In this document: one piece after another, positions 1,940 to 17,983 of the stretch
Layout of the letters: every line of letters begins with the position of its first letter
How positions within the stretch are numbered: position 1 is the first letter of the stretch
Assembly: GCF_023554255.2 (NCBI RefSeq)
Contig: NZ_JAMJWD020000005.1
Coordinates: 186,001-250,000, forward strand
Direction of reading: 5' to 3'
Length of the DNA stretch: 64,000 nt
DNA from: Phyllobacterium sp. 21LDTY02-6
GTDB taxonomy: Bacteria; Pseudomonadota; Alphaproteobacteria; Rhizobiales; Rhizobiaceae
The notes under the pieces: model-generated
Database searches by the model: none
What the model was told of the DNA's origin: nothing
The model's input: only the letters and a program-made list of their open reading frames with translations
Program-made: the position numbers and the translations under genes

Positions 1940-1967
1940 GCCGATTGCGCCCGATAGGAGAATGTCC

Positions 1968-4172
1968 ATGACCGATACCCCCGCCGGGAACCAGCGTTTC
2001 CGGATGTCTCGCCGCCGCTTGATCCTGGGCGGATCGCTGGTCGGCGGTGCGCTGATCGTCGGCTATGCTGCCACCAATCCGATGCAGGCGCTGGGCGCCA
2101 TCCTGCAGGGCGGCGGCAGCGACCCGGAGCCAAGTGCCTTCGGTCCATTCATTCGCATAACCGAGGACGGTTGGGTAACGATCGTCAGCAGGCAGCAGGA
2201 ATTGGGCCAGGGTATCCATGCCGGGCTGGCTGCACTGGTCGCAGAGGAGCTCGACGCGGATTGGGACAAGATACGCGTCATCGATTCACGCAGCAATTTT
2301 CGTGCCTATGGCCCACAGGTCACAGGTGCATCTAACGGTATTGCATCCAATTGGGATCTGATGCGCAATGCCGGTGCCGCGGCACGTGCCATGTTCGTGG
2401 GCGCGGCCGCGCTTCGCTGGGGCGTTCCGAGTGGCTCGATCGACGTGCGCGACGGTATCGTGTCACACCCGGCGTCGAGCCGCACGGCCACCTTCGCCGC
2501 ACTCCTTGCCGACGCATCGCGCCAGACGCCGCCGGAATCGCCGGTGCTCAAACAGCCAGGGGACTATCGCCTGATCGGTACCGACAAGGTGCGGCGCAAG
2601 GACAGCCTTCCGAAAAGCACCGGTCTCCAGGTTTACACGCAGGACATCCAACGCCCGGACATGCTCGTTGCGATGGTCGCGCATAGCCCACGCTTCGGCG
2701 GCAAGCTGTCGCGATTCGACGCGGCCGACGCGCGGAAGGTGAAGGGGGTTGTTGACGTTTTCGCGATCGAGACCGGCGTTGCGGTGGTTGCCGAAACGAC
2801 CTATGCCGCCTGGCGGGGGCGCGATGCACTTCGCATCGAATGGGACGATGGCGAAGCCGAAAAACGTTCAACCGAAGAGCTTGTCGACCACTATCACGAC
2901 CTGGCGGCAGGACGCGGCGATGTGGAACCGAGTACGTTCTTTTCCAAGGGCGAGAATCCAGAGATCGCGTTCAATGGCGGCGACGTCGCGGAGTTCGTCT
3001 TCGACTTTCCCTATCTCGCGCATGCGCCCATGGAGACGCTCGACTGTGTCGCCCAGGTGAATGGCTGGGACGTCGCGATTACGTCGGGAGCCCATGCTGC
3101 GACGATCGATCAGGTTCTGGGCGCGCTCGCGGCACGGACCATCCCCGGAAAGGTCGACATCGAGATTGTGCCGGCCGGCGGATCGTTTGGTCGCCGCAGC
3201 AACATGAGCTCCGACTATCTCGTCGAATGTGTACGGATCGCAAAGCGGACTGCCGGGCGCCCGGTCAAGCTGATGTGGAGCCGTGAGGATGAGATGATGT
3301 CGGGTTATTTCCGGCCAATGTCGCATCATCGTGCCTGGGTTGAAATCGGAGTTGACGGCTTCCCCACGCGTTGGCGCGTCCATAGCGTTTGTCAGGCGCT
3401 GTTTCCCATTGGGCCGAACAATCTGGCGACCGAAGGTATTACCAACTCGCCGTACTTCTCGACCGCCACAACCGTCGATGGGAAGATCTTTACCCCGGAT
3501 TTCCCGGTAGTGGTCGGCCTGTGGCGCTCGGTCGGTCATTCCCATACCGCCCTGGTGATGGAGCATATCGTCGATCAACTTGCCCGGCGGGCCGGTCTCG
3601 ACCCGGCAGCGTACCGGCGTGTACTCTACGAGAAGGCGGGGGATAAGCGACGGCTGGCGGTGCTTGAAGAGCTTTGCCTCAAGGCGGGTTGGGACAGTCC
3701 GATCGAGCCCGGCTGGGCGCGCGGGCTCGCCATTCACGAAGCGTTCGGCACCATCGTCGGCCAGGTCGCCGAGGTTCGGTTGGTCGATGGCCGGCCTATC
3801 GTCCGCCGCGTCGTTGCCGTTGTCGATTGCGGCATCTCCATCGCAAACGACCAGATCGCGGCGCAGATGGAGGGAGGGATCGCCTTTGGTCTCACGGCCG
3901 CTCTCTATGGCGCGGTAACCCTCAAGGACGGCATCGTCCAGGAAACCAATTTCGATCGTTATCCGATTTTGCGGATGAACGAGATGCCGGCGGTGGAAAC
4001 GCATATCATCAAATCCGCCAACCGGCCGACCGGCATGGGCGAACCCGGCGTACCGCCCATCGCACCGGCGGTGGCGAATGCGATGCTGGCATTGACGGGA
4101 ACTCCAACGACAAGCCTGCCGTTCCTGAGCGGCAACGCGCTCGGCAACAGCGACATATCTGCACAATCGTAG
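1968..4172 (+). CDS. Molybdopterin-binding subunit of isoquinoline-oxidoreductase-type hydroxylase (IorB-like)
   Basis: About 734 residues, the usual size for the IorB family. The N-terminus SRRRLILGGSLVGG resembles a twin-arginine signal, consistent with periplasmic export of the folded cofactor enzyme. The body shows ITEDGWVTI, SRQELGQG-like, AGGSFGRRS and the C-terminal GMGEPGVPPIAPAVANA block with the expected catalytic Glu. The ATG at 1968 has an AGGAG seven bases upstream; an ATG at 1962 sits too close to it. It is the second large subunit in the cluster, the first being partial at the window start. Both could share the single 2Fe-2S subunit, or one could be non-catalytic. Confidence 0.88.
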   Translation: MTDTPAGNQRFRMSRRRLILGGSLVGGALIVGYAATNPMQALGAILQGGGSDPEPSAFGPFIRITEDGWVTIVSRQQELGQGIHAGLAALVAEELDADWDKIRVIDSRSNFRAYGPQVTGASNGIASNWDLMRNAGAAARAMFVGAAALRWGVPSGSIDVRDGIVSHPASSRTATFAALLADASRQTPPESPVLKQPGDYRLIGTDKVRRKDSLPKSTGLQVYTQDIQRPDMLVAMVAHSPRFGGKLSRFDAADARKVKGVVDVFAIETGVAVVAETTYAAWRGRDALRIEWDDGEAEKRSTEELVDHYHDLAAGRGDVEPSTFFSKGENPEIAFNGGDVAEFVFDFPYLAHAPMETLDCVAQVNGWDVAITSGAHAATIDQVLGALAARTIPGKVDIEIVPAGGSFGRRSNMSSDYLVECVRIAKRTAGRPVKLMWSREDEMMSGYFRPMSHHRAWVEIGVDGFPTRWRVHSVCQALFPIGPNNLATEGITNSPYFSTATTVDGKIFTPDFPVVVGLWRSVGHSHTALVMEHIVDQLARRAGLDPAAYRRVLYEKAGDKRRLAVLEELCLKAGWDSPIEPGWARGLAIHEAFGTIVGQVAEVRLVDGRPIVRRVVAVVDCGISIANDQIAAQMEGGIAFGLTAALYGAVTLKDGIVQETNFDRYPILRMNEMPAVETHIIKSANRPTGMGEPGVPPIAPAVANAMLALTGTPTTSLPFLSGNALGNSDISAQS

Positions 4173-4241: not shown

Positions 4242-5654
4242 CTAGTCTTCTCTGAACGCCCGATTGAACGTGTCGGTAATCGGGCCGGCAAGATAGTCGA
4301 TGGCGCGGCGCGGTTTATGGACGATGAGAATTTCGGCCGGCATGCCGGGGTAGAGCCTGATGGATGGATTGGCGGCCAATGATCGGGCGGAGATTTCGGC
4401 GCGTGCGACGAAATAAGCCGTATCGTTTCTCTCATTGATGAGCTGGTCGGCGGCAACATAGGTGACTTTGCCGTCGAGCGGTGAGAGGGAACGCTGATTG
4501 AATGCAGTCAATCTGACCTGAACAGCCGAATCGACCGCCACGCCATCAATATCGCGCGGACTGATCATCATCTCGACGATCATCGGCTCGTTCTCAGGCA
4601 CAATATCGAGAATTGCTTCTCCAGCCGCAACAACGCCGCCAGGTGTACGCAACCGGATATTGTCAACGATACCTGCTTGCGGCGATGCTATCTCAACCCG
4701 GCGCAAGACATCCTTGGCCGCAACAATCCGCTCTTCCGTATCGGCAAGCTCGATCTGGTTCGTCGTGATCTCGCCGGCAATTTCGGACTGCAAGTCGCTT
4801 TCAATGCCATGAAGAGCAAACTCCGCACCGGCTTTCGCCTGTTCTGCTACTGCCTTGTCGCCGGCATATTCACCGCGGTTTCCGGCCAGTTCGCTCAATC
4901 TTGCATCGATCTCGGTGAGCCTGGATTTCTCTGCGAACCCTTTATCGACCAGACCGGCGACAGCGGCGCGCTGTTCTGTGATCAGGGCGATCTGCCGATC
5001 GGCTGCAGCTATTTGCGCCTCTGACGCTTTCGCCTGCTCGGTATGTTGCTCGATGGTTTTCCGCTGCACGTCGATACGGCTTATCTTCTGAAAAGAGCGC
5101 TTTTCGAAGAATATCTGCTCTGCCTTCATGGCGTTCCGGACGGTAACATCATCCCCAGCACCAAAATCCTCCGGAAACTGGATCTTGGCTGCGGTGGCTT
5201 GTTCCGCATGCAGGCGGGCAAGTCTGGCAATCAAACCGACCCGGCGGCTCTGCAATGCCCGCAGGTCCGAGCGGGCCCTCGTATTGTCCAACCGGAGGAG
5301 CGGCTGCCCCGCTGTTACAACATCGCCTTCGCGCACCAGCAGGCTATCCAGAATACCACCCTCGAAATGGCTGATGGTCTTGCGCTTCGAATCGACGATC
5401 ACCGTTCCAATTGCAATCGCGGCGCTGCCCAGTTCGGCTGAGTAGGCCCAGCTGAAGAACCCGCCAAACGCGATGCCGATCGTGGTTATTCCGGCGATGA
5501 CAAGCCTGCGCAACGGCGACTTTTCGTCTTCCTGCTCAAGATCCGTCACCCACTCAGGGCGGACCGTGCCAAACCTGGTCGGCAGACTGCTGCCTGTTGA
5601 AGCCGTTCGCGGCGCAAGCAGTTCCACGACATGTCTGGGGCGGTCGCTTGTCAT
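4242..5654 (-). CDS. HlyD-family periplasmic adaptor (type I secretion membrane fusion protein, PrsE-like)
   Basis: About 470 residues. A single membrane segment near residues 35-55 (LVIAGITTIGIAFGGFFSWA) is followed by a lipoyl/barrel-sandwich half-motif (GTVIVDSKRKTISHFEGG and VREGDVV). A long central coiled-coil region with many Gln/Glu/Ala follows (about residues 130-290), then a C-terminal beta-barrel (GGVVAAGEAILDIVPE). This is the HlyD/PrsE layout of adaptors that bridge an inner-membrane ABC exporter and an outer-membrane channel. The start at 5654 overlaps the stop of the DedA gene (ATGA). A longer frame from 5828 exists, but it lies wholly inside the DedA gene. No ABC exporter or TolC gene is adjacent. 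Confidence 0.85.
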   Translation of the reverse strand: MTSDRPRHVVELLAPRTASTGSSLPTRFGTVRPEWVTDLEQEDEKSPLRRLVIAGITTIGIAFGGFFSWAYSAELGSAAIAIGTVIVDSKRKTISHFEGGILDSLLVREGDVVTAGQPLLRLDNTRARSDLRALQSRRVGLIARLARLHAEQATAAKIQFPEDFGAGDDVTVRNAMKAEQIFFEKRSFQKISRIDVQRKTIEQHTEQAKASEAQIAAADRQIALITEQRAAVAGLVDKGFAEKSRLTEIDARLSELAGNRGEYAGDKAVAEQAKAGAEFALHGIESDLQSEIAGEITTNQIELADTEERIVAAKDVLRRVEIASPQAGIVDNIRLRTPGGVVAAGEAILDIVPENEPMIVEMMISPRDIDGVAVDSAVQVRLTAFNQRSLSPLDGKVTYVAADQLINERNDTAYFVARAEISARSLAANPSIRLYPGMPAEILIVHKPRRAIDYLAGPITDTFNRAFRED

Positions 5655-6283
5655 GATCGGTTTTCGGCCGCGCGCCATGCGCAACGGGCGGCAAATCGCC
5701 ATCCCAGCGCAAGCAGCACCTCCACTGTGATGAGGAGAACAAGCACCTTGATCGCCAGGGCCGATGCATTCATCCCCGGAACCGCCAGCACGGCAAAGTA
5801 GCCGACGGCGACGAACAGGCCATTCCAAAGAGCGATGCCCAATATTGTTCCGCCAGCAAATCGCCGGAAGTTCGCGGGAATAAGCCCGGCGACCAACGGC
5901 GCGATCAGGCGCACGGCGGGGATGAGCTGGGAGATGAAGATCAGGCTTCGCTCACGCGCCCGGAATGATGACAAGGTGTTATCGATGCGCGCTGATGACA
6001 AACCGAGCAACCTGCCAAGCCAGTACAGCAGCCGGGTAGATCGGCTCCGCCCTGTGGCTCGAACAAGCAGGTAAAAGGCCAGCCCTCCACTAAAGCTTCC
6101 GGCGGTCGTGAAGATGATCGCATCCGGGAGTGACCAGGCGCTGTCCACGGCCGCAATGCCGATTGCGACCAGGACGCCGTAAGATGGCAGAACGGGCACG
6201 AAACGCTCCGCGAGGCCGAGCGCGAACAGGCCGAACATGCCATAAGCAGCTATCCAGTTGATGAGGCTTCCAAGCGGGTCCAT
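5651..6283 (-). CDS. DedA family membrane protein
   Basis: 210 residues, strongly hydrophobic, with several membrane segments. The DedA/VTT-domain pattern is visible: a conserved N-terminal FGLFALGLAERFVPVLPS stretch and the re-entrant region around FISQLIPAVRLIAPLVAG with its Arg. DedA proteins act in membrane lipid or proton-motive-force homeostasis, in part as undecaprenyl-phosphate or phospholipid flippases. It is translationally coupled to the HlyD-type adaptor downstream. A conserved small reading frame (NLPIP motif) points away from this gene about 170 bp upstream. Confidence 0.85.
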   Translation of the reverse strand: MDPLGSLINWIAAYGMFGLFALGLAERFVPVLPSYGVLVAIGIAAVDSAWSLPDAIIFTTAGSFSGGLAFYLLVRATGRSRSTRLLYWLGRLLGLSSARIDNTLSSFRARERSLIFISQLIPAVRLIAPLVAGLIPANFRRFAGGTILGIALWNGLFVAVGYFAVLAVPGMNASALAIKVLVLLITVEVLLALGWRFAARCAWRAAENRS

Positions 6284-6452
6284 GCTCAGGCCTCGCCTTT
6301 GGCTGCTTGCGCATCTGAATCGCCGATTGTTGGCAGCGCATCGGGTTCGGACATTGGTGATGCCCCCTTCTCGGATTGAGTTACGAAGTTTCGCCGCTGG
6401 CTGTGCCGGTTGGCTGGTCCCATCAAACTAATGGAAGATTCCAATGGCTAGA

Positions 6453-6512
6453 ATGCCCGAAACCGCGATGAATTTGCCTATTCCTGCAAGCCATCTTCAA
6501 GGCCCCGGCTAG
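6453..6512 (+). CDS. Candidate small peptide, NLPIP family copy 1
   Basis: A 19-residue frame reading MPETAMNLPIPASHLQGPG. An in-frame ATG at 6444 gives three more residues and has GGAAGA upstream. It belongs to a set of five short frames in 6.4-16.6 kb that share M-P-x-x-A-x-N-L-P-I-P-A/T at identical spacing from the start codon. One of them is the N-terminus of the AraC regulator at 15579-16613. It lies divergently from the DedA gene. Differences between copies fall mostly at third codon positions, which favours translation, but a protein-binding DNA site has not been excluded. Confidence 0.4.
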   Translation: MPETAMNLPIPASHLQGPG

Positions 6513-6515
6513 GCT

Positions 6516-6551
6516 CGAAAAGAACGGTGGGCCGGGCGAAGCCCACCGTTC
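6516..6551 (-). terminator. Rho-independent terminator of the porin gene
   Basis: A perfect 11-bp stem (GAACGGTGGGC paired with GCCCACCGTTC) with an eight-base loop, followed on the minus strand by CTTTTCG. It lies about 140 bp after the porin stop codon, in the right orientation. Confidence 0.75.
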
Positions 6552-6693
6552 CATGAACAATGACCTGACTGGAGATCGGATCATCATTTTCTCACGCCGC
6601 AGTCCTTCTACGGCATGAGGATGGGCCATTTCCCAATGTGGGAATCGGCTCAATATTCCGGGGCTTGGTCCCGGAATCCTGCTTCGCGTGTGC

Positions 6694-7770
6694 TCAGAAG
6701 TTCCTTTGGAAGCGGATGATCCCCTCGAAGGCATCGTCTCCGTTGCCGTCGAAATCGTTCCGATCCTGGCGTTCGCCACCGAAAGACGTATAGCTGATTT
6801 CCGGCGTGATCATGAAGCCGGGAACCAGTTCATAGGCGACGTTGGCGGCAGCATTGAATGTACCGTCCTCTTCATAGGCGCCCTGCACGTTGAAAGTTGC
6901 CTTCTCGGAAAGTTTGGCCGCAAGACCGCCCCACACGGCATAGTCGCCGTGCCATGCACCGAAATAGTTGTTCTCAAACTCATCGCCATTGGACTTGTAG
7001 CCGCCCATGACCCAAGCCGAGATTGTATCGGTGAAGCTCACATCCAAACGGACCTTGCCGGCCCATTCTTCGGAAACCGAATCATACCCGGCAACACCGG
7101 AGACTTTGCCCCAGGCCTGTTCGTATCGCGCACCGACAACAATGTGAGGCATGTAGTCATCGATGCGGTAGTCGACATCGCCGTAACCCTGGTCAGCCTC
7201 CATGCCCTGTTCTGCACCGATCATCGCTGAGAAACCGTTGCCACCAGCCCAGGTATAGCTGATCTGATTGGTCACATACTGACCCGCCAGGATGACGTCA
7301 TCGTTTATGATGTCGCCCATATAGCCAGTCCATGCCATGAACTGCGAGTCAGTGGCACCGACACGGAAGCCACCGAGTTCGATGAAGCCGTTGTTCAACT
7401 CGACAGATTCGTCGTCATTGCCGTTGTTGAAATTGAACCGTAGCTCGACATAGGAACGCAACGTGCCGAGTTCCGTTTCGTTGCGTGCGTCAACACGAAG
7501 GGAAACACGCGAGCGCTGGGAATAAGTGTCACGCTCTTCGCCATTATACGCACTGTCACCGGCACGCGCGTCGTAACGCATGTAACCGCTGATCTTCAGG
7601 CAGGTCTCCGAACCTGGAATGTAGAAGAAGCCAGCACCATAGGTGTCGCAAACGCGGACATATTCCGCCGGTTCCGGTTCCGCAACGATAACTGCATCTG
7701 CGGCACGAGCGCCCGATACCACGACAAGCGCGGCAGCGGAGCCCATTAGCAAGCTCTTAATGTTCATCAT
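6694..7770 (-). CDS. Omp2-type outer membrane porin
   Basis: 358 residues. The N-terminal signal peptide (MNIKSLLMGSAAALVVVSGARA, cleaved before ADAV) and the following EPEPAEYVRVCDTYGAGF and TCLKISGYMRYD are the hallmark start of Brucella/rhizobial Omp2/RopA-like porins (porin_2 family). The two Cys of the N-terminal region are present. The protein ends in IIRFQRNF, with the terminal Phe needed for outer-membrane insertion. It forms a trimeric 16-strand beta-barrel for diffusion of small hydrophilic solutes. It stands alone, with its own promoter candidate and terminator. The sequence is the best taxonomic pointer in the window, to Brucella/Ochrobactrum. Confidence 0.93.
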   Translation of the reverse strand: MMNIKSLLMGSAAALVVVSGARAADAVIVAEPEPAEYVRVCDTYGAGFFYIPGSETCLKISGYMRYDARAGDSAYNGEERDTYSQRSRVSLRVDARNETELGTLRSYVELRFNFNNGNDDESVELNNGFIELGGFRVGATDSQFMAWTGYMGDIINDDVILAGQYVTNQISYTWAGGNGFSAMIGAEQGMEADQGYGDVDYRIDDYMPHIVVGARYEQAWGKVSGVAGYDSVSEEWAGKVRLDVSFTDTISAWVMGGYKSNGDEFENNYFGAWHGDYAVWGGLAAKLSEKATFNVQGAYEEDGTFNAAANVAYELVPGFMITPEISYTSFGGERQDRNDFDGNGDDAFEGIIRFQRNF

Positions 7771-7801
7771 AAATCTCCAATGATGTTCTGTTTACGCCAT
7801 G

Positions 7802-7830
7802 AATAAGCTCGCAATATTCAACAGTGTCAA
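7802..7830 (-). promoter_or_regulatory. Putative promoter of the porin gene
   Basis: On the minus strand TTGACA, 17 bases, then CTTATT end about 31 bp before the porin start codon. The surrounding 300 bp are AT-rich. This is a consensus-like sigma-70 promoter by eye only. Confidence 0.4.
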
Positions 7831-7977
7831 AGCTATTTTTTGCACCCACAGCTCTTCACTTTCACCGCGTTGCAGTTCAGCAACAGCCAATCCAATGGCA
7901 ATCTGGTATAGCAATAACTAATTGTTTTTACACGATTTTTATAGTTGTCATTTGAACACGACTTCGCATTTCGACAA

Positions 7978-8053
7978 GAACAGGCTCGAATAATCTTTAG
8001 CCGACTGCATTAATAACGCGCGGCTTCGTCAAAGATTATTCTGCGAGCTGTTC
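7978..8053. repeat. Long imperfect inverted repeat in the porin upstream region
   Basis: The arms are 7978-7998 and 8031-8053. GAACAGGCTCG then AATAATCTTT is matched in reverse complement by AAAGATTATT then a two-base bulge and GCGAGCTGTTC with one mismatch. An inner pair, AGCCG/CGGCT, extends the stem. It lies 210-280 bp upstream of the porin start, in the 548-bp gap before the methyltransferase gene. No gene is seen in the rest of that gap. Confidence 0.6.
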
Positions 8054-8318
8054 TCGCCCATTATGTTTTGATAGCGACATGGCTTCTCGAACCCTGCCGT
8101 CATGTTTAACGCTGTTGTGATCTACTGCAGACTGTGCTCCTCAGCTCTCGATGCATTTCATTGTCTGACGCATCAGAAACGGCTGGAACTAACCTAAACC
8201 AAGGTTGTCCCACAGTTGTCCCGGCGAATGATTGAATTGTAGCCAAATGTGCCAGAATGGGTCCCCGGTTACACATTGTTGCGCCGCTGCCGTAACAGAC
8301 CGCGCCCTGCCTTTGCCG

Positions 8319-9950
8319 TCATGAGAGGCGCATAGCTTCTCCGACCATTCGTGGAGCTCCCGCGCCACCGTCCATCGCTCCTCGCATGGCGATTTCGCCG
8401 CTTAAGGAAGGCTCGACGATCTGCAGGGCTTCCAGCAGCGGCAGCTCGAACTTTAGAAATTTGCTGGCCGCGATCCCGATCTGCTTGAGGTTTTCATCCT
8501 TGGATTCAATCCTGCTGCCTTCATTCAGCAAGCGTTCGCCAATTCTGTCCAGAAAGTCCCAGACATAATCAGCCAATAGATCGGGACTGACCCGCCCTTC
8601 GTTCCAGGCGCGAATAAATAGTTGCGTCATGTGCGGCATCGCGATCCCGCCGCCGGTCACCGGTGACGCCATGTGATGCAGATCCATGCCGACGAGGGCG
8701 CGTTCCAGGATATGCCTGTTCAAAGCCCTGCATTGCTCTATTACCTTTTGGGAGGGTTGCTGTGCTGGACCCATGAACCCTGCACCGGTGAGAACCGTCA
8801 GCACTTCAACGACGTCTTTGGGTTCAAGCCGTTGAAGTTTCGGATGCCTCAATAGTTCATCGACGCGCTTTGGCCTATATCCGTCATCGGACAAGGCCTC
8901 GATGACAGGATCATATTTTTCGGTCGGCAGTTCCACTTCCCCGCGACCGCACGGGATCTTCTTTGGAATATCGGCTATTGGCTTCAACAGGACGAAGACC
9001 TGCGCGTGCCACGCATCGCGATGTTCTGAGTCCGACAGTTTCCGAGGTCCCTTGATGAAGATGTCGCTTCTGAACCGTCTGTTCAGCAGATAGTCGCGCA
9101 CCGTCTCCCGCATGATCGGATGGCCGATTTGCGCGACGAGCTTGCGGCCCGTTTCGCTGAGCCTGAGCGCATCGACGCCGCTCAAAAGACTGGCAGATCC
9201 AACGAAGGAGAGCTTGGCGTCCTCAAGGCTGCGGACCATGTCGGAAAAATGCCCCAGATGCCAGTCGGCGTTCAGAAATTCATGTGCCAGATAGTTGCGG
9301 CCTTGCTTCATCAGATGTTCGAGATGCTGTCCAGCGACAGGATTCTCCTGAAAATAGATGGAACCGGCCTTCGCGATGTCTGCGGAGAACTTGAGCGCAC
9401 CTTCGATCATTCCCACAGGTCCCGACATTCTGCCGTCGCCATAGTCCTGATAGAGGGACAACAGCTCCCGGATGGGAATAACCGGGGCCCACCCGGGCAG
9501 GCAGTTGTAGCTTATGTAGGCAATTCCGCCCGGGCGAAGCTTCCGCCTGATAATATCCACGATGATTTTTCGGTTCGCTTCAGAAATCCAGCTCCAGATG
9601 CCGTGAAGCGCGATGATATCAAAGTCTGGAAGATCGTTCCGGCTCGACAGCTCTTCGAAGGAGTCATCGAACAGATGAAGGTCGGCGCCGGAAGCTGCGG
9701 CGAGCCTGCGGGCCTCGACCGTCTGGGTGGGGTTGAAATCAGTTCCCCAATAGGATCCAGCGGATCCCGCCGCATGCATGTTGATTGAGACGCCTTGTCC
9801 GAAACCAAGTTCGAGATAGATCGGCTTCTCGCGCAGCTGCGGCTCAGCCGCTTGGCCGAGACAGGCAAGGCGCAGCATTGCCGAGTTCATTTCCGAGTAG
9901 TAACCATAGGAATAGTTCAGATCAGTATAGTACCCGTAGGACCATGCCAT
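8319..9950 (-). CDS. SAM-dependent methyltransferase with methyltransferase regulatory domain
   Basis: 543 residues. The Rossmann SAM-binding motif is YLELGFGQGVSI at about residues 45-56, followed by an acidic motif FDIIALHGIWSW. After the catalytic domain come a conserved SYNCLPGW block and a long C-terminal region of the regulatory-domain type (about residues 200-540). The repeated aromatic start (SYGYYTDLNYSYGYYSEMN) is typical of this class. The substrate is unknown; relatives are found beside surface polysaccharide genes, which are not seen here. It is a single gene on the minus strand with an NLPIP small frame pointing away from its promoter region. Confidence 0.8.
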   Translation of the reverse strand: MAWSYGYYTDLNYSYGYYSEMNSAMLRLACLGQAAEPQLREKPIYLELGFGQGVSINMHAAGSAGSYWGTDFNPTQTVEARRLAAASGADLHLFDDSFEELSSRNDLPDFDIIALHGIWSWISEANRKIIVDIIRRKLRPGGIAYISYNCLPGWAPVIPIRELLSLYQDYGDGRMSGPVGMIEGALKFSADIAKAGSIYFQENPVAGQHLEHLMKQGRNYLAHEFLNADWHLGHFSDMVRSLEDAKLSFVGSASLLSGVDALRLSETGRKLVAQIGHPIMRETVRDYLLNRRFRSDIFIKGPRKLSDSEHRDAWHAQVFVLLKPIADIPKKIPCGRGEVELPTEKYDPVIEALSDDGYRPKRVDELLRHPKLQRLEPKDVVEVLTVLTGAGFMGPAQQPSQKVIEQCRALNRHILERALVGMDLHHMASPVTGGGIAMPHMTQLFIRAWNEGRVSPDLLADYVWDFLDRIGERLLNEGSRIESKDENLKQIGIAASKFLKFELPLLEALQIVEPSLSGEIAMRGAMDGGAGAPRMVGEAMRLS

Positions 9951-10118
9951 CGGTGAGACTCCACGACGCGTTCAGGGCTGGGCCCCGCCGTCCGTTGTTG
10001 CTGGATTGAAGGCGATATCGGTATCGCCGCGCGCCGGGACCGGCGGGACCTCAATATCTGTCCCGACACGGTCCGCTTGGCATTTTCATATCAATAGGGT
10101 CAGGTAAGCTGGAGCTCC

Positions 10119-10166
10119 ATGCCTGAACGCGCGAAAAACTTGCCCATTCCTGCGTTGATCGCTTAA
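10119..10166 (+). CDS. Candidate small peptide, NLPIP family copy 2
   Basis: A 15-residue frame, MPERAKNLPIPALIA, with GGAG four bases upstream of the ATG and a clean TAA stop. Compared with copy 1 the conserved codons change synonymously (CCC/CCT, AAT/AAC, CCT/CCC, GCA/GCG). It sits in the otherwise empty 233-bp gap between the methyltransferase gene (divergent) and the end of the AraC gene. Confidence 0.45.
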   Translation: MPERAKNLPIPALIA

Positions 10167-10183
10167 TCGACAAGCGACCTCAG

Positions 10184-11167
10184 TCAGGCTGTGATCGCGC
10201 CAGAGCCGGCAACGGTATCGCGCCGGTTCGTCATGGCTGGTCTGACCTCCGCGTCTACCTTGTGCCCACGCCCATACTGGCGAGGCGAGCAGCCCATGAC
10301 GCGTTTGAAGGCCGTGCTGAACGCGCTTTCCGATTCATAGCCGAGCGAAGCGGCTATCGCCGAGACGGGATCACTTGAATTTTCGAGCCTGTCGGAGGCG
10401 AGCAGCATCCGCCACCGCGCCACATATTGCATTGGCGGCTCGCCCACCCGCTCCCTGAACCTGAGCGCGAATGTCGAACGCGACATTCCGGCTATCTCGC
10501 CCAGCTCTTGCAGCGTCCATTGATATGCCGGATCGGCATGGATCGCCTTGATCGCGGCGCCGAGTTGTCCGTCCGCCAGAGAAAAGAACCAGCCGACGCG
10601 CTCGCCGCCATCCGTGTCGAGATGTATACGCAGAGCCTGCATCAGCATCAGGTGGGCCAGGTGCTGCACGACAAGAGCGTTCCCCGGCTGCTGTTCGCGC
10701 AGTTCCTTCATCATCTGTTCGACCGACCAACGCAGGGTTGCCTGTTCGGGCTGCTGGCGAATATGGACGATCGGCGGAAGCAGTCCCAGCAGCATGTCGG
10801 CGTGATTGCCCTTCACGCCGAAACGGCTTCCAATGAGAAACAGGCCGCCGCCGCCGTTAAGCGTGACGACACCACCCCTTCGCGCCACCGGAAATATCTC
10901 AGCGGCCCCGACCGCTGGTCCATTGATGCTGCTGCCAAGACGGAAGCGGCGACCCGTCGGCAGCACGAAGCAATCGCCGGCCTCAAGCCGCACTGCATCA
11001 CTGACTCCGTCGACGGTGAGCCAGCAGCCACCCGACATGACAGCATAGCATTTGATGAGCTTGTGCTGATCGCCGAACTGAACAGCCCATTCGCCGCCGG
11101 CGTCGAAACCGGACGATACATAGGCATGGGGTTTCAGCAGCGAAAGGACGTCGGACAGCGGATCCAT
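10184..11167 (-). CDS. AraC family transcriptional regulator with cupin-type N-terminal domain
   Basis: About 327 residues from the MDPLSDVLSLLKPH start, the usual beginning of cupin_6-type AraC regulators. A longer frame adds 32 atypical residues. The N-terminal half carries the effector-binding cupin fold (ECFVLP-like DCFVLPTGRRFRL). The C-terminal half has two helix-turn-helix motifs, the second in SAIAASLGYESESAFSTAFKRVMGC-like form. Regulators of this type commonly control adjacent oxidoreductase or efflux genes. Here the SDR gene upstream on the same strand (11300-12214) is the closest candidate target. Confidence 0.85.
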   Translation of the reverse strand: MDPLSDVLSLLKPHAYVSSGFDAGGEWAVQFGDQHKLIKCYAVMSGGCWLTVDGVSDAVRLEAGDCFVLPTGRRFRLGSSINGPAVGAAEIFPVARRGGVVTLNGGGGLFLIGSRFGVKGNHADMLLGLLPPIVHIRQQPEQATLRWSVEQMMKELREQQPGNALVVQHLAHLMLMQALRIHLDTDGGERVGWFFSLADGQLGAAIKAIHADPAYQWTLQELGEIAGMSRSTFALRFRERVGEPPMQYVARWRMLLASDRLENSSDPVSAIAASLGYESESAFSTAFKRVMGCSPRQYGRGHKVDAEVRPAMTNRRDTVAGSGAITA

Positions 11168-11299
11168 GGGCTCATCCCGGACGATTGCAAAGATAACCCG
11201 ATCATACAGGGCAGATCGCCTGTCGCAACTCGGCACTTTGCGCCTTAAACTAACCAGCCTCAACGTGTGCGGGAGTTGGGCGCAGCGCGGGCCCCGGTC

Positions 11300-12214
11300 T
11301 CACACGAATGTCACGTTCGTCAATTTAAGAGACGCGTCCCAGAGGCGTGCCGCCACTGAGGAATCGAGCGCCGCCTTTGGCGGCGTCTCCTCGGTCGGAT
11401 AGCCGCGCGTCCCACTCAACCTGTCAGGCCCATAATAGGCGCCGTCGCGCGCCGCCGGGTCGGTCGCTGCATAGAGCGTCGGTAGCGCGCCCTGCCACAC
11501 GGGCTGGAACAGAAATGGCAGGAAGCGGCGCGCCATCCCAGCCGCGCTCCACCGGCCCGCTCCGTTCGGAAGCAGGTCGGTGCGGGTGACGCCCGGATGG
11601 GCGGCGAGGCTCTCGATGCCCCATCCGGACGCCTTGCTGCGCCGGCTCAATTCCAGGGCGAACATGACGCAGGCAAGCTTCGACTGGCTGTAGACCGGTC
11701 CCGGCTCATAGCCGCGCTCTGCCTGCAGGTCATCGAAGTTGATCGCGCCTTGTCGCGCTGCAATGCTGCCGAGGGTCACGACCCGGGGGTTCTGCGCTTT
11801 CTTCAGGAGCGGCAGCAGATGCGCCGTGAGCGCGAAATGGCCGAGATAATTGGTGCCGAACTGCAACTCGAAGCCGTCACTGGTCTCACGACGCTTCGGC
11901 GGCGTCATGACGCCGGCATTGTTGATCAGGAGATCGAGGCTGTCCTGCTCGCGCGCCAGTTGCGCGGCGAATTCGGCGATCGACGCGAGGTTGGCGAGAT
12001 CCACCTTGCCAAACCGCACTTGCCCGTCGGGTACGGTTTGTCTGATCGCGGCCACCGCTTCAGCACCCTTCTGGGGATTGCGCCCGGCGATCACGACATT
12101 CGCTCCGGCCCCAACCAGGGCAAGTGCGTCCTCGTAGCCTAATCCCCCAGTGCCGGTCACGACAGCCGTGCGACCCTGTTGCGATGGAATATTCTTGCTC
12201 GTCCACTTGGTCAT
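11300..12214 (-). CDS. Short-chain dehydrogenase/reductase (paralogue A)
   Basis: 304 residues of the retinol-dehydrogenase/protochlorophyllide-reductase-like SDR type. The cofactor motif TGTGGLG lies at about residues 20-26, with an NNAGVM block and the catalytic YSQSK (Tyr-x-x-x-Lys). The first Gly-rich motif is TGTGGLG rather than the usual TGANSGIG. It is a close tandem paralogue of the next gene upstream (12351-13340); both begin MTKWTS and are alike along their whole length, which points to a local duplication. The substrate is unknown. Confidence 0.88.
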   Translation of the reverse strand: MTKWTSKNIPSQQGRTAVVTGTGGLGYEDALALVGAGANVVIAGRNPQKGAEAVAAIRQTVPDGQVRFGKVDLANLASIAEFAAQLAREQDSLDLLINNAGVMTPPKRRETSDGFELQFGTNYLGHFALTAHLLPLLKKAQNPRVVTLGSIAARQGAINFDDLQAERGYEPGPVYSQSKLACVMFALELSRRSKASGWGIESLAAHPGVTRTDLLPNGAGRWSAAGMARRFLPFLFQPVWQGALPTLYAATDPAARDGAYYGPDRLSGTRGYPTEETPPKAALDSSVAARLWDASLKLTNVTFV

Positions 12215-12319
12215 TTAGGAGATCCACGTCTTTCCAAAAGTTTAGCGAGGCTATGAGTGACGAATGTCGCGACGCGCCCGCTTTTGCCCTCCTAATAGAA
12301 ACGCCGGCGCTCCACCTCC

Positions 12320-12487
12320 ATGTCCAAACCAACAATAAACATGCCTATTCCTACATTACTTCAGTTGGCACGATATCCAAAGGAGGGGAAATATCCGTCC
12401 TGCCATGCCGGATCCGGGACCGCACCGCATCCGTGCCCAACCCGGTCAGTTGCAGCGAAATCTCCCAGAGGCGAGCCGCGACGGTAG
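12320..12487 (+). other. NLPIP motif, copy 3 (possible small reading frame)
   Basis: The frame begins MSKPTINMPIPTLLQLARYP and would run 55 residues, entering antisense into the 3' end of SDR paralogue B. The first 12 codons align with the other NLPIP copies at the same register (N-M-P-I-P-T). It points away from the start of SDR paralogue A, about 105 bp off. No strong ribosome binding site is visible, so translation is uncertain. Confidence 0.3.
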
Positions 12488-13340
12488 TGTCCAGCGCCTG
12501 GCTAGGAGGCTTCTCCTCGATTGGATAGCCCCGGGTTCCAGCCAGCCGGTCAGGTCCGTAATAGTGGCCGGCCTGCGCCGCCGGATCGGTCGCAGCAAAG
12601 AGTGTTGGCAAGGCGCCCTGCCATGCGGGCTGATAGAGAAACCATAAATAGCGCCGCGCAAATCCAGGCAGGCTCGACCAGCCCGGACCGTTCGGAATGA
12701 GGTCCGTGCGCGAGATGCCGGGATGCGCCGCCAAGCTATCGATGCCCCATCCTTCAGCCTTGCTGCGTCGGTTCAGTTCGAAGGCGAACATGATGCAGGC
12801 CAGTTTCGACTGGCTGTAGACTTGCATCGGCTTGTAACCGCGTTCGGCTTGCAGGTCTTCAAAGTTCATGGTTCCCCATCGTGCTGCCACACTGCCCAAA
12901 GTCACCACGCGGGGCCTTTGCCCCCGCTTCAGGAGCGGCAGCAAATGCATGGTAAGGGCGAAATGACCAAGATAATTGGTCCCCAACTGCAACTCGAAGC
13001 CATCACTGGTCTCGCGCCACGTTGGCGTTCTCATGACTCCTGCATTGTTCACCAAAAGGTCGATACTGTCCTGCTCCCGTCCGATCTGCGTGGCGAATTC
13101 CGCGATCGAAGCGAGATTTGCGAGATCGACCTTGCCGAACCGCACCTGTGCGCCGGGGACGGTTTCCCTGATTGCGTCCACGGCTTTCGCGCCCTTGCCG
13201 GGATTGCGCCCGGCGATCACCACATCAGCGCCGGCTCGCGCCAATGCCAGCGCAGTCTCGAAGCCTAGCCCGCCCGTACCGGTGACGACCGCTGAGCGGC
13301 CTAGCTGCAATGGAATGTCCCCGGATGTCCATTTCGTCAT
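12351..13340 (-). CDS. Short-chain dehydrogenase/reductase (paralogue B)
   Basis: 329 residues, with the same SDR architecture as the neighbour at 11300-12214: TGTGGLGFE cofactor motif, NNAGVM, and YSQSK catalytic pair. The C-terminus is about 25 residues longer than in the paralogue and ends in a tail (DAVRSRIRHGRTDISPPL) that is read through the intergenic sequence containing NLPIP copy 3. This extension may therefore be recent. The tandem arrangement suggests duplication with divergence of substrate range. Confidence 0.87.
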   Translation of the reverse strand: MTKWTSGDIPLQLGRSAVVTGTGGLGFETALALARAGADVVIAGRNPGKGAKAVDAIRETVPGAQVRFGKVDLANLASIAEFATQIGREQDSIDLLVNNAGVMRTPTWRETSDGFELQLGTNYLGHFALTMHLLPLLKRGQRPRVVTLGSVAARWGTMNFEDLQAERGYKPMQVYSQSKLACIMFAFELNRRSKAEGWGIDSLAAHPGISRTDLIPNGPGWSSLPGFARRYLWFLYQPAWQGALPTLFAATDPAAQAGHYYGPDRLAGTRGYPIEEKPPSQALDTTVAARLWEISLQLTGLGTDAVRSRIRHGRTDISPPLDIVPTEVM

Positions 13341-13398
13341 CTCATCATCCTTGTCTTCCGCCTGCTCGCACAGGCTAACGCCGGCGCGTCATGGGGCT

Positions 13399-13869
13399 TC
13401 ACTGCGCGCGGCGAAGCACCATGGTTCGGCCAAGTATGGCGGTGCCCATATAGGCGCGAAGTTCGAGTTTTCCGCTCACCAGCGTGGCTCGAGCGGAGTG
13501 CGTCTGGCCAGTTGCCCCGCTGTAGAAACTTCCGTCTTCCCAGCGACCGTCAGCGGCGTCCCATTTGAGGTTCGTCACGAGAACGGCTCGCTCCAGGGAA
13601 CGGCTCCTGAGGTTCGGGTCCGGATTGAGCGTGTCCTTCTTGAAGGTCTTGTCGTCAGCCTCCATCAGAAGTTTTCCGTAGAGGACCCGGGCCGCATAAC
13701 TTCCTCCGGCGTCAAACATCTCGAGTTTGATGTTGCCGTCTTCGGATTCCCAGACGCCGACGATCTGATCCGGTGAAGAAGCCTGTGCGAATGCACCTCC
13801 AGCCGAAAGGCCTATCACGCCCGCCAGGAGCGTTGCGGCCAGCATGGGCCCGGTTACTGATTTCAACAT
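13399..13869 (-). CDS. Exported DUF2147 family protein
   Basis: 156 residues with a Sec signal peptide (hydrophobic LLAGVIGLSAGGAFA, cleavage near residue 28). The DUF2147 pattern follows: IVGVWESEDGNIKLEMF, then GKLLM, LNPDPNLRSRSLER-like and W..G..Y....G..... blocks. The domain is a small beta-barrel of unknown function found in the periplasm of many proteobacteria. It appears to be a single gene, with divergent NLPIP copy 4 about 160 bp upstream. Confidence 0.82.
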   Translation of the reverse strand: MLKSVTGPMLAATLLAGVIGLSAGGAFAQASSPDQIVGVWESEDGNIKLEMFDAGGSYAARVLYGKLLMEADDKTFKKDTLNPDPNLRSRSLERAVLVTNLKWDAADGRWEDGSFYSGATGQTHSARATLVSGKLELRAYMGTAILGRTMVLRRAQ

Positions 13870-14028
13870 TCTACGTTCCTTTTGCCGGTTAGGTGGATGT
13901 CACGTCGAGAGTCGTGCCGCCCTGAGTTCGATGGCTGCCCAATCCCAAATCAGCGCGGCCTTGGATCCGGCCGGGACGATTGCCGGACATTGTGCTGCGG
14001 AAATTACACGGCGGCTGCCGAGCGACGA

Positions 14029-14073
14029 ATGCCAAGAACCGCAAATTTCCTGCCCGATCCTGCAGCTGAATAG
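14029..14073 (+). CDS. Candidate small peptide, NLPIP family copy 4 (divergent copy)
   Basis: A 14-residue frame, MPRTANFLPDPAAE, in register with the other NLPIP copies but with N-L changed to F-L and PIP to PDP. It sits in the 369-bp gap between the DUF2147 gene and the MarR gene, pointing away from the former. A further CTCCTATTCCAGC at 14138-14150 resembles the core. Nothing else is seen in this gap apart from the MarR promoter. Confidence 0.3.
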   Translation: MPRTANFLPDPAAE

Positions 14074-14176
14074 GGGCCTTGCCCGCCCGCGCAGCAGTTT
14101 GTGAAGAGCGTGGGCCTCAATCCGCCCGCTGATGCGCTCTCCTATTCCAGCCCGCGATCAGAGCAAGGCGCAGCCC

Positions 14177-14221
14177 TTGACATTTGTTTGGTACCTTGCA
14201 TATTTGCTAGGTAGCTAGCAA
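14177..14221 (+). promoter_or_regulatory. Promoter and palindromic operator of the MarR-epimerase operon
   Basis: TTGACA (14177-14182), 16-17 bases, then a TATATT-like -10 (CATATTT) make a good promoter. A perfect palindrome with a six-base centre, TTGCTAGGTAGCTAGCAA (14204-14221), overlaps the -10 and the start region. An outer TACCT/AGGTA pair encloses the -10. This is the expected layout for autorepression by the MarR protein encoded next. Confidence 0.6.
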
Positions 14222-14238
14222 CATTGGAGTATGCATCG

Positions 14239-14694
14239 GTGATCGGGAAAGACACAGATCGTGACATCATTGGAGCTTGGGCCAAGCGATGTTACTTCGC
14301 CGGTCGGGCGGTCATGGATTCAGCCTTGCGTCCTTACGATCTCGGCTCCGTGCAGTGGTACGTGCTCCACCAGCTCGCAACGGCAGGGCCGACCATGCAG
14401 CGTGATCTCGTGCGGTTGCTCGCGATCGAACGCGCGACAATGACTGGCATCGTTGCAACGCTTGTACGCAAGGGGTTGATCGAGCAGGAGCCAGACAAGG
14501 TTGATCAGCGCCAGAAGCTTCTACGCATCACCGCCACCGGAACGAAGCTATGGGGCGAGCTACCTGATTTGTCCTTCATTCGCGCAGCCGCGTTCGACGG
14601 CATCGACGATGCCGACATTGCGATCGCGATCCGAGTTCTCCAGAGCGCGACTGATCGGCTCGAAACCATTCTGCAGAAAGGAACCCATCCATGA
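14239..14694 (+). CDS. MarR family transcriptional regulator
   Basis: About 151 residues. The winged helix-turn-helix is clear: MQRDLVRLLAIERATMTGIV as the recognition region, then LVRKGLIEQEPDKVDQRQKLLRIT as the wing, typical MarR. The GTG at 14239 is preferred because GGAG lies ten bases upstream; the TTG at 14224 is itself part of that ribosome binding site. It overlaps the epimerase gene by four bases (ATGA), so the two are coupled. A palindrome over the promoter suggests autoregulation. Confidence 0.88.
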   Translation: MIGKDTDRDIIGAWAKRCYFAGRAVMDSALRPYDLGSVQWYVLHQLATAGPTMQRDLVRLLAIERATMTGIVATLVRKGLIEQEPDKVDQRQKLLRITATGTKLWGELPDLSFIRAAAFDGIDDADIAIAIRVLQSATDRLETILQKGTHP

Positions 14695-15506
14695 CAGTGC
14701 TGATAACCGGCGCAACGGGGCTCGTCGGAGCCCGTCTTCTTCCGCGCCTCGTCGAAGCAGGGCTGACCTGCCGCGCGCTCATGCGCAACAGCAAGAAGGC
14801 ACCCGCCGGCGTGGAAGCGGTGGAAGCCGATCTCCTCGATCCCGTTTCGCTCATGCCGGCAATGGAGGGCGTTTCGGCGATCATCCATCTCGCAGCGGTT
14901 TTCCGTACGCCCGACACCGATCTCATTTGGAAGAGCAATCTCGAAGGCACGTGCAATCTCATCGCGGCGGCGAAGGCGCGTGCGCCCGAGGCGCGTTTCA
15001 TCATGGCAAGCACGTCCAATATCTATCACGCGGACAGCCCGCATCCTGGCCGCGAGGACGATGCGGCGAACCCGCAACAGGCCTATCCCGCCAGCAAACT
15101 GGCTGCCGAGAACGCATTGCGCAATAGCGGGCTGAACTGGGCCATCCAGCGGTTTGGCTTCGTCTATGGCGACAATGACGGACATCTCCAGGAACTGCCC
15201 CGACTTGTCGCCAATTACAAAATGCATCCTGCCCAGAGAATGAGCCTGGTACATCACCGCGATATCGCCACGGCCATCAACATCGCCCTGACCGGGGCGA
15301 TGGATGGGCGTATCGTCAACATCGCCGATGAGGCCCCGACTTCGATCTACGAACTCGTCACCCTGGTCGGCGGCACAATGGAACCGTCGGCGACGCCGCT
15401 CGGAAATCCTTGGCACCTCCACATGGATGTCTCGCTTGCTCGCAGCCTCGGTTTTCAACCGATCGTCAGAACCGTTCATCAGGCTGCGCGGCAAAATCTG
15501 ATGTGA
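14691..15506 (+). CDS. NAD(P)-dependent epimerase/dehydratase-type oxidoreductase (extended SDR)
   Basis: 271 residues. The N-terminal Rossmann motif is TGATGLVGARL, followed by IHLAAVFRTP and a YPASKLAAE catalytic block (Tyr-x-x-x-Lys), the extended-SDR signature. The protein is shorter than sugar epimerases (about 310-340) and lacks their C-terminal part, so it is more likely a reductase of the atypical extended group. It is coupled to the MarR gene and probably controlled by it through the operator upstream. Confidence 0.85.
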   Translation: MTVLITGATGLVGARLLPRLVEAGLTCRALMRNSKKAPAGVEAVEADLLDPVSLMPAMEGVSAIIHLAAVFRTPDTDLIWKSNLEGTCNLIAAAKARAPEARFIMASTSNIYHADSPHPGREDDAANPQQAYPASKLAAENALRNSGLNWAIQRFGFVYGDNDGHLQELPRLVANYKMHPAQRMSLVHHRDIATAINIALTGAMDGRIVNIADEAPTSIYELVTLVGGTMEPSATPLGNPWHLHMDVSLARSLGFQPIVRTVHQAARQNLM

Positions 15507-15578
15507 TTGGCTTCGTATCGTATTCTAAAAGACCGCTCCGAGCCGAAGTGACACGGAGCGGCCTCCTGCAGAACGCGT

Positions 15579-16613
15579 TCAGGCGGAACGGGCCTTGCGG
15601 CTGGCATACTGGCTGTACATCCGCTGGTGGTTCAGCGCGTCCTGCTTCGGAGCCACGCCGAACATTCGGGAATATTCTCGGCTGAACTGCGACGGACTTT
15701 CGTAACCGACCTTGTAGGCGGTCTCCTCGACACTCGCCGCGTCCGCAACCATGATGCGCCGCGCCTCCAGCAGGCGCAGCTGCTTCTGGAACTGAAGCGG
15801 CGTCACCGAAGTCAGTTGCTTGAAGTGCTGATGGAACGAGGACGGGCTCATGCGCGCAACTTCGGCAAGTTGCTCCACCCGCAGGGATTGGGTGAAGTTG
15901 GCCCGCAGGAAATAGATGGCTTTGGCAACCCGCATGAAATTCGATTCCGGCACCGCGAGACTGCATAGTTCGGCGCCGTGCGGGCCCGTGAGAAGCCAGT
16001 AGCAGATCTCGCGCATGACAGATGGATAGAGGATCGGGATTGCCTTCGGCGTTTGCGACATCCGTATCAGCCGCAGCACGCATTCCGCCAATGGTTCATC
16101 GACCGTTCCGACGAACACGCATGCACCGGGAGTGGCAGGCGGAGCCGGAGGCGTCTCCAACTGCTCCAGCACCTCGCGCAGCATCGAAACGTCCAGATCT
16201 ATGGTGACGCCAATATAGGGCAGCTGCGGGCTTGCATCGACGACCCGACCACTCGCCGGCATTTCCATGCTGACGACCAGACATTCCATGGCGCCGTAGC
16301 GAAGCGTGTCCTCACCAAAGTGGATTTCCTTTGCTCCCTGGACGACGACACACAGCGACGGACGGTAGATCATCCGCATCGGCATCCGCTGCTCGTATGA
16401 ACGGGTGATGTTGACGCTGTCGATCTGTGTCGGGAACAGGCCCTCACCGCCGCCCTGGCTTTCGATATAAGCGGTTACTCCGCCAAGGAGCGATGACGAC
16501 ACGCGAACCTCCGACTGCGTTCGAGGCCAGCGCATCACTTGCCCTGCCATAGGCAACATATCGCGGCCTGTAGGAATAGGCAAATTTCTTGCTGTATCGG
16601 GCATTTTGGTCAT
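15579..16613 (-). CDS. AraC family transcriptional regulator with AraC_N (type I) domain, carrying an NLPIP N-terminus
   Basis: 344 residues. The N-terminal half matches the AraC-type N-terminal effector domain (YRPSLCVVVQGAKEIHFGE and SMEMPASGRVV). The C-terminal half carries two helix-turn-helix motifs (VARMSPSSFHQHFKQLT and ETAYKVGYESPSQFSREYS). The first residues read MTKMPDTARNLPIPTGRDML: the NLPIP peptide that occurs as separate small frames elsewhere in the region is fused here to the regulator. Its start lies 54 bp from the divergent MFS gene, a likely target. This class usually activates oxidoreductase genes. Confidence 0.9.
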   Translation of the reverse strand: MTKMPDTARNLPIPTGRDMLPMAGQVMRWPRTQSEVRVSSSLLGGVTAYIESQGGGEGLFPTQIDSVNITRSYEQRMPMRMIYRPSLCVVVQGAKEIHFGEDTLRYGAMECLVVSMEMPASGRVVDASPQLPYIGVTIDLDVSMLREVLEQLETPPAPPATPGACVFVGTVDEPLAECVLRLIRMSQTPKAIPILYPSVMREICYWLLTGPHGAELCSLAVPESNFMRVAKAIYFLRANFTQSLRVEQLAEVARMSPSSFHQHFKQLTSVTPLQFQKQLRLLEARRIMVADAASVEETAYKVGYESPSQFSREYSRMFGVAPKQDALNHQRMYSQYASRKARSA

Positions 16614-16666
16614 TGAAGACTTCCTCTAGCTTGATGATGCCAATCACAGCCAGGGAAGCGTCAAAC

Positions 16667-17983
16667 ATGACAGAAATTGCCGCGTCGTCAATAGACAGTC
16701 GAGACGTGCCGACCACTATGTCTACTGCCGACGGCGATGAATATGTCCAGGGGCGACGGGTCGTTGTGCTGCTTGTCGCACTGTTTCTTGTCAGCGTTAC
16801 GTCGCAGGTCGATCGGATGCTTCCTTTCGTCCTGGCCGAGTCAATCAAGAAGGATCTAAACCTGAGCGATACGCAGGTGGGCTTGCTGACAGGCATCGCC
16901 TTTGCGGTGTGCTATACGCTCTTGTCGATGCCGCTCGCCCGTGCTGCCGATCGAGGCTCGCCGCGCTTCGTCCTGATCCTGTGCATCGTGCTCTGGACCG
17001 CGATGACGGCGCTCGGCGGGCTCGCCATGAGTTTCTTGTTCCTCGCTTTTACACGCTTCGGCGTCGCCTTTGGCGAGGCCGGCGGCACGCCCTCCAGCCA
17101 CGCGATCATTGCTCGCAAAGTCGCGCCCGAGCGCCGCGGCCTGGCACTGGGCATTTTCTCCATGGGCATTCCGCTCGGCACCATGGTGGGCTTCGGAGCA
17201 GGCGGTGCGATCGGCGACGCCCTCGGCTGGCGCACAGCACTCGTCGGCGCCGGCGCCCTTGGGCTGCTGATCGCCCTGCTGGCGCTCATCGTCATAGGAC
17301 CGACCCCGCCGCTCAGGCGCCCGGCGGCCAATAGCGAGCCCTTCCTGCGGGCGAGCCTGCAATTGCTTTCCTCCCCGGCATTCCGTTGGCTGTTCATCGG
17401 GTCGATCGCACTCGGTTTCGCTGCGGCTCCGTTCTATGCATTTGCCGTTCCCTTTCTCATCCGCACCCACGGCTTCAGCGCCAGCGAGGCCGGACTGGCG
17501 TTCGGGCTGCTGCAAGGCCTGATGGGGATAGTCGGGACGCTGGTGGGCGGGCGCTTGTTCGATCGCGCGGTGCACTCCGGTACCGGCCGGGTCCTTGGGC
17601 CGCCCGCCATCCTCTTCATGATCGCAAGCTTGACGACGTCTGCCGCTTTGTTCGCGCCGGTCGGCTGGCTTTCCATCCTCCTCTTCGTACCCGGCATGCT
17701 CTCCTTCGCGTTTCTGCTGCCCTGGTGCTTCGGCGCCGCACATATGGTGGCCGGCAAGGGCAAGGAGGCGATGGCGACGAGCCTCGCAATGGTCGGCTCC
17801 GGCCTTCTCGGCCCAGCACTCGGTCCCCTGATCGTTGGAATCATCAGCGACTCCGCGACAGCAGCGCAAGTGCCGAACGGTCTTGGGATCGGTTTGCTCA
17901 TCGTCCCGATGGCGAGCATCCTGACCGGAATCGCCATGCTGATTGCAAACCAGCGGATTGCTGCCGTGTTCGGCAATAAATGA
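16667..17983 (+). CDS. MFS transporter
   Basis: About 438 residues with 12 predicted membrane segments. The segment-1 to segment-2 region (VDRMLPFVLAESIKKDLNLSDTQVGLLTG) and the ARAADRGSPRFVLI loop are typical of the spinster/ACS-like major facilitator group, which carry organic anions, aromatic acids or lipids. The ATG at 16667 has GGGAA nine bases upstream; the frame is open further upstream but overlaps the AraC start region. It is divergent from the AraC regulator. The substrate is not readable from the sequence. Confidence 0.87.
   Translation: MTEIAASSIDSRDVPTTMSTADGDEYVQGRRVVVLLVALFLVSVTSQVDRMLPFVLAESIKKDLNLSDTQVGLLTGIAFAVCYTLLSMPLARAADRGSPRFVLILCIVLWTAMTALGGLAMSFLFLAFTRFGVAFGEAGGTPSSHAIIARKVAPERRGLALGIFSMGIPLGTMVGFGAGGAIGDALGWRTALVGAGALGLLIALLALIVIGPTPPLRRPAANSEPFLRASLQLLSSPAFRWLFIGSIALGFAAAPFYAFAVPFLIRTHGFSASEAGLAFGLLQGLMGIVGTLVGGRLFDRAVHSGTGRVLGPPAILFMIASLTTSAALFAPVGWLSILLFVPGMLSFAFLLPWCFGAAHMVAGKGKEAMATSLAMVGSGLLGPALGPLIVGIISDSATAAQVPNGLGIGLLIVPMASILTGIAMLIANQRIAAVFGNK

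Follow-up and report, generated by a model that had tools for sequence, protein, structure and literature searches.

A direct repeat around an AraC_N/YqhC-type regulator in Phyllobacterium, first read as a micropeptide family, is predicted to be its operator

Introduction

Activators of the AraC family are expected to sit next to the -35 element, as Escherichia coli AraC does at araI1-I2, where two direct-repeat half-sites lie 21 base pairs (bp) apart with the proximal one beside the -35. This study concerns a 64,000-nucleotide (nt) stretch of DNA from Phyllobacterium sp. 21LDTY02-6 (positions 186,001 to 250,000 of contig NZ_JAMJWD020000005.1), called the window throughout, in which a short element recurs before several genes around one AraC-type regulator gene (15579-16613, minus strand). 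An initial annotation had recognized the element as a recurring peptide motif, MPxxAxNLPIP, and had weighed two explanations. Either the copies encode a family of leader or signalling peptides, or they are operators for the AraC protein, and the copy in its own gene is translated only incidentally. The element resembles araI1-I2 in the arrangement and spacing of its half-sites and in their placement, but differs from it in half-site sequence, sensor domain, and signal.

The regulator carries an AraC_N domain (PF06719; expectation value [E], 3.4e-49) followed by HTH_18 (E 1.1e-20), both above the curated cut-off, as an AraC_N-type protein should. It is a relative of E. coli YqhC, which we take to be a PF06719 member as well, and the two share 34% identity over 247 amino acids. 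Like the regulator studied here, YqhC is an activator encoded divergently from an oxidoreductase gene. YqhC is reported to bind the yqhD promoter region (PMC5297802, PMC8262776) and to have a link with aldehydes (PMC5297802, PMC8262776, PMC8249747), and RegulonDB is said to annotate activator sites for the promoter region of yqhC (PMC13052891). An excerpt of PMC8249747 presents YqhC as a single-target regulator, whereas six putative operators surround one regulator in the window. No title or abstract opening among the matches listed named an operator for this regulator family, and a literature search directed at YqhC homologues and their regulon returned no paper. The E. coli operator may already have been published, or entered in a database, at base resolution.

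Here, we propose that each copy of the element is an operator of the linked AraC_N/YqhC-type regulator, through which that protein would activate the genes that the copies face. From the features described below, we put the probability of this reading at about 95%.

Results

Read on the strand that faces the neighboring gene, the element is a 32-bp direct repeat, GGAWYNGGCA-N17-GGCAT, whose two GGCA half-sites fall 21 bp apart (profile columns 7-10 and 28-31), the spacing of about 21 bp between direct-repeat half-sites that marks an AraC-family operator. The five stretches originally described are all present and translate as stated, from 6453, 10119, 12320, and 14029 on the plus strand and from 16604 on the minus strand, but at the DNA level their number rises to six, with a further site at 692-723 (plus; 16.9 bits) whose frame, TRDPSEKLPIP, has no start codon. 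Both GGCA halves are exact in four of the six; the exceptions are GACA, in the second half-site GACAT of 12320-12351, and CGCG, in the weak second half-site CGCGT of 692-723. The peptide copies had been seen to point away from a neighboring gene start, and this orientation turns out to be the key to the DNA reading, in that the unit reads toward that gene on the opposite strand, about 53 to 170 bp upstream of it.

All six window sites also have TA, as in a -10 element, exactly 22 nt past the unit, and in four of them it extends to TAnnnT. The hexamers at offset 22 are TACTCT for the plus-strand site at 692-723, which faces the 2Fe-2S gene at 783 and lacks an ATG on the peptide strand; TAGTTT for the minus-strand site at 6453-6484 (GGAATAGGCA-N17-GGCAT), facing the DedA gene; TATTGA at 10119-10150 (minus), facing the methyltransferase gene; TATTAG at 12320-12351 (minus), facing SDR1; TAATTT at 14029-14060 (minus), facing the DUF2147 gene; and TAGCTT at 16573-16604 (plus), which faces the MFS gene and overlaps codons 4-14 of the divergent regulator. 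Position and orientation beside the predicted promoters are thus fixed, as in an AraC-family operator. By analogy with other activators of the family, a predicted -35 separated from this -10 by a 17-bp spacer would start at the last base of GGCAT, as would be expected for an activator of the AraC type. A second GGCA-N17-GGCA near the DUF2147 gene (13945, minus) gave no profile match of at least 8 bits and was taken as chance, and two further matches in the window, slightly above 8 bits (44162, 10.8 bits), fall under the 13.5-bit line used for counting.

A wider sample was assembled from 79 loci fetched with the regulator protein, which together with the window gave 80 sequences. A profile trained on 74 distinct seed sites matched these sequences 155 times at 8 bits or more, compared with 6 times in Markov controls, and 131 times at 18 bits or more, compared with none, an enrichment that is partly circular because the seeds came from the same sequences. 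At the 13.5-bit line 11 of the 155 matches were dropped, leaving 144 sites, 119 of them distinct, and sites occurred in 71 of the 79 loci as well as in the window. TA stood at offset 22 in 69 of the 119 distinct sites against a background of 1.5% per offset, and TAnnnT was found at offset 22 in 66, at 21 in 10, and at 23 in 6, with no other offset exceeding 1. With the commonest regulator-start positions dropped, the count at offset 22 was 41 of 89, and TA appeared at offsets 21-24 in 65 of 89.

The element is also confined within its own 4.6-megabase genome. A degenerate pattern allowing one mismatch, which the divergent 14029 copy does not fit, matched four times, always in the cluster, and its reversed control did not match at all. 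A profile of 38 sites, which include the window's six and so flatter the expectation values of those six but leave the absence of others unaffected, ranked the five copies on top (E 5.9e-6 to 6.5e-4) and 692-723 after them (E 0.039). Up to E 1 there was one further match, at C5:678139 (E 0.29), which was taken as chance. The five copies are not chance occurrences.

One alternative is that the operators are owned by another AraC-family protein, such as the Cupin_6-type AraC regulator at 10184-11150 or a distant paralogue, given that AraC-type half-sites are degenerate and that 16 matches to the regulator occur in the genome, the weakest of them confined to the HTH. The distribution of sites argues otherwise. 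In 69 of the 79 loci fetched with the AraC_N protein, a site of at least 13.5 bits is found no more than 400 bp from where the regulator match starts. Across 59 genomes, its own and those of relatives, sites occurred in all 4 with a close regulator (65 to 100% identity) and in 1 of the other 55, where the site has no ATG and stands beside another AraC-type gene (32% identity), in a scan whose strict filters may miss weak sites. A genome of the window's genus, G006, carries the regulator at C6:805643-806674, and the match in the Phyllobacterium endophyticum locus L007 has the same contig coordinates.

More distant relatives extend this association. A YqhC-type regulator would be expected to have the same operator at E. 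coli yqhC-yqhD, and 6 kilobases (kb) of that region, outside the training set, gave a best match of 19.3 bits, with the next at 6.3. The match, at 3155236-3155267 of NC_000913.3, lies between yqhC and yqhD and faces yqhD; it reads GGCA-N17-(A)GCAT in the same orientation as the window's sites and has CACAAT at offset 22. Among 26 loci of distant relatives (L088-L113), likewise outside the training set, 11 exceeded 10 bits, each with its site close to where the AraC relative is projected to begin, as at yqhC-yqhD, and none of 30 shuffled controls rose above 6 bits. Ownership by some other AraC protein is, in our judgment, improbable. Five of the distant AraC loci (L089-L093) share a near-identical weak match of 6.1 bits each, perhaps a diverged operator.

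The peptide explanation, in which the units encode leader or signalling micropeptides of the form MPxxAxNLPIP that act in cis or as signals, can draw on the 90 of 119 distinct sites that keep an ATG and ten open codons, on a close GGAG at the 10119 copy, and on short frames at three window copies. The orphan frames at 6453, 10119, and 14029 stop after 19, 15, and 14 residues; that at 12320 continues for 55. The remaining 29 distinct sites break the peptide, 10 by a stop within ten codons of the ATG and 19 by having no ATG, GTG, or TTG, some of the codons in these 19 (for example, ATT and CTG) being rare starts. A start codon with an open frame is therefore not a constant feature, as it would be in a micropeptide family. 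Frame-breaking sites include cyanobacterial ones reading MPKPIR-stop, MPKTL-stop, and MPKAL-stop, those with GGTAT before DUF2147 genes, and those with GGTGT, GGCGT, or CGCGT that precede the 2Fe-2S gene, both in Sphingomonas loci and in the window itself (the 692 site), and such sites have the same kind of placement, partner gene, and -10 spacing as the others. Close relatives L011 and L013 are even distinguished by a nonsense change just past the motif.

Codon positions tell the same story. The initial annotation had noted that differences between copies lie mainly at third positions, an impression that came from five copies and fails on the 119 distinct sites. Over codons 3-10, mean information is 0.81, 1.22, and 1.19 bits at positions 1, 2, and 3, so that these codons show no third-position relaxation. 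The third base of codon 2 is free (0.16 bits), and averaging all ten codons gives 1.01, 1.33, and 1.09 bits. Individual bases are fixed while residues change: codon 10 ends in T in 116 of 119 sites although it encodes D, I, N, F, V, or S, and codon 8 is NTG in 117 of 119, encoding L, M, or V. Substitution is thus not mainly synonymous, as selection on a micropeptide would have it. The peptide consensus can be reproduced by the DNA profile alone, since independent-column draws from it gave M[PS]xxxxx[LM]P without a stop in 69.4% of cases, compared with 68.9% of real sites (82 of 119), and stops within ten codons in 6.9%, compared with 9.2%.

Such a mimic would follow from the geometry of the repeat. 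Read in antisense, GGCAT would supply ATG-CC, and 21 bp later the other GGCA would supply (T/C)TG-CC in the same frame, because 21 bp is seven codons. On the sequence evidence, then, the peptide is a by-product of a direct repeat with a period divisible by three. We rejected the peptide family, which we regard as highly improbable, because of its missing start codons, its stops, the simulation, and the codon positions; the operator idea offered beside it has strong support from the sequence.

Hardly credible is the notion that the copies are functionless pieces of the regulator gene's 5' end scattered by duplication, which we rejected, for although one copy does lie at the regulator start and resembles the others, by eye the likeness among window copies ends at the 32-bp unit save for the -10 at its fixed distance, every copy stands upstream of a gene in a constant orientation, and in many genera the unit recurs before genes of these target classes.

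At the regulator itself, the motif does lie within the N terminus, not as the first residues, as had been thought, but as residues 4-15 (MTK-MPDTARNLPIPT), behind a first ATG (16613) preceded by GAGGAAG. The MFS-facing operator copy of the window, like that of many related loci, is probably translated as the regulator's N-terminal tail, which would be conserved because the operator overlaps the first codons; in a Salinicola locus (L032), a stop follows MP at the corresponding copy. A stretch of less than 100 bp (16573-16667) holds the predicted MFS promoter together with the ribosome site and first codons of the regulator. The regulator's own promoter probably lies toward or inside the MFS gene, because these three elements occupy so short a space. 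A similar promoter placement is predicted for E. coli yqhC/yqhD in an excerpt of PMC8262776.

The predicted targets fall into several classes. Facing the six sites are genes for the 2Fe-2S subunit of a xanthine/aldehyde-oxidase-type enzyme (783-1250, plus; Fer2, Fer2_2), a DedA/VTT-domain membrane protein (5651-6283, minus), a methyltransferase with a MethyTransf_Reg domain (8319-9950, minus), SDR1 (11300-12214, minus), a DUF2147 protein (13399-13869, minus), and an MFS transporter (16667-17983, plus), before whose homologues the site lies by 54 to 63 bp. A molybdopterin-binding subunit (1911-4172, plus; MoCoBD_1/2) may, at a guess from gene order and strand, share an operon with the 2Fe-2S gene. 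Sorted by the homologue that they face, the 144 sites divide into 46 before SDR genes (20 nearest SDR1 and 26 nearest SDR2), the commonest class, 30 before MFS, 15 before DUF2147, 8 before the 2Fe-2S subunit (the window's own included), and 1 each before DedA and methyltransferase, both of these being the window's own sites, so that the two classes rest mainly on the window. In L018, one site precedes a frame containing a methyltransferase-like start. The other 43 sites face something else or nothing recognized; by eye, they include further SDR-like genes in Burkholderia and cyanobacterial genes resembling those for NAD-binding and alcohol dehydrogenase-type enzymes.

Several neighboring features stand beside these targets. 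Two paralogous SDR genes lie in tandem (11300-12214 and 12351-13340, minus), and only SDR1 is directly preceded by a profile match in the window; in related loci, sites stand before genes nearest either type. The cluster also contains the Cupin_6-type AraC regulator (10184-11150, minus), immediately behind the operator at 10119-10150. A DedA-family gene, yghB, lies beside E. coli yqhC (L114, 1064-1723), and DedA is also among the operator-bearing genes of the window.

Discussion

The recurring element is a real feature and an ordinary kind of bacterial switch, and the suggestion that it is an operator was very probably right. At the level of DNA, we were able to document the repeat, its spacing, the position of the -10, its orientation, its linkage to the regulator, and its conservation. 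Binding by this particular protein, activation, and the chemical signal are what we infer from them. In the model that these features support, the regulator would bind the two GGCA half-sites, a direct repeat 21 bp apart; the promoter-proximal half-site would abut the -35, with the -10 beginning 22 nt downstream. This is the arrangement, often called class II, in which an AraC-type activator touches RNA polymerase. The protein would then turn on the MFS transporter, the SDR oxidoreductases, the DUF2147 protein, the molybdenum oxidoreductase, DedA, and the methyltransferase, and the response would probably counter reactive aldehydes or ketones. At the regulator's own gene, the MFS-facing operator would overlap the first codons and so be translated into an N-terminal tail. 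Because of the classes of the facing genes and the known aldehyde link of YqhC, a regulon for reactive carbonyls, with aldehyde and ketone handling at its center, is suggested.

Several observations weigh against this reading. The sixth site in the window is weak (E 0.039), 50 of the 119 distinct sites lack TA at offset 22, and 32 lack it at offsets 21-23. Eight of the 79 loci (L060, L069, L074, L078, and L080-L083) have no site of at least 13.5 bits, and the siteless loci include those of Onishia/Halomonas, where regulator identity is 31 to 34%. Among the 26 distant-relative loci, several of which are near-copies of one another, 15 have no match above 10 bits. The operator could also serve other AraC paralogues of the same genome, and the co-occurrence of sites and regulator, which are linked, may reflect the inheritance of one island. 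For E. coli, an excerpt of PMC6115493 gives the yqhD site as a 24-bp palindrome with a SoxS-like sequence, which differs from the repeat seen here.

The least ordinary aspect of the operator is the apparent code that it has in common with those of distant AraC_N regulators. We lean, by a little, toward a wider proposal, that GGCA-N17-GGCA with a -10 about 22 nt further on is common to much of the AraC_N family in Alpha-, Beta-, and Gammaproteobacteria and in cyanobacteria, that in many Alphaproteobacteria it has become part of the regulator gene's opening codons, and that binding there may also block transcription of the regulator itself. If this is true, the same DNA would serve both the divergent transporter gene, as part of its promoter, and the regulator, as the code for an N-terminal tail.

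What appeared to be a peptide family becomes a testable regulon, with one regulator and six predicted operators in 16 kb, and the same operator code marks the E. coli yqhD promoter region. The case also exposes a trap, in that direct repeats whose spacing is a multiple of three mimic conserved short peptides. The shared layout can now be checked in other bacteria; if the code is indeed shared, AraC_N regulons would be predictable in many genomes, and the YqhC site could be located at base resolution.

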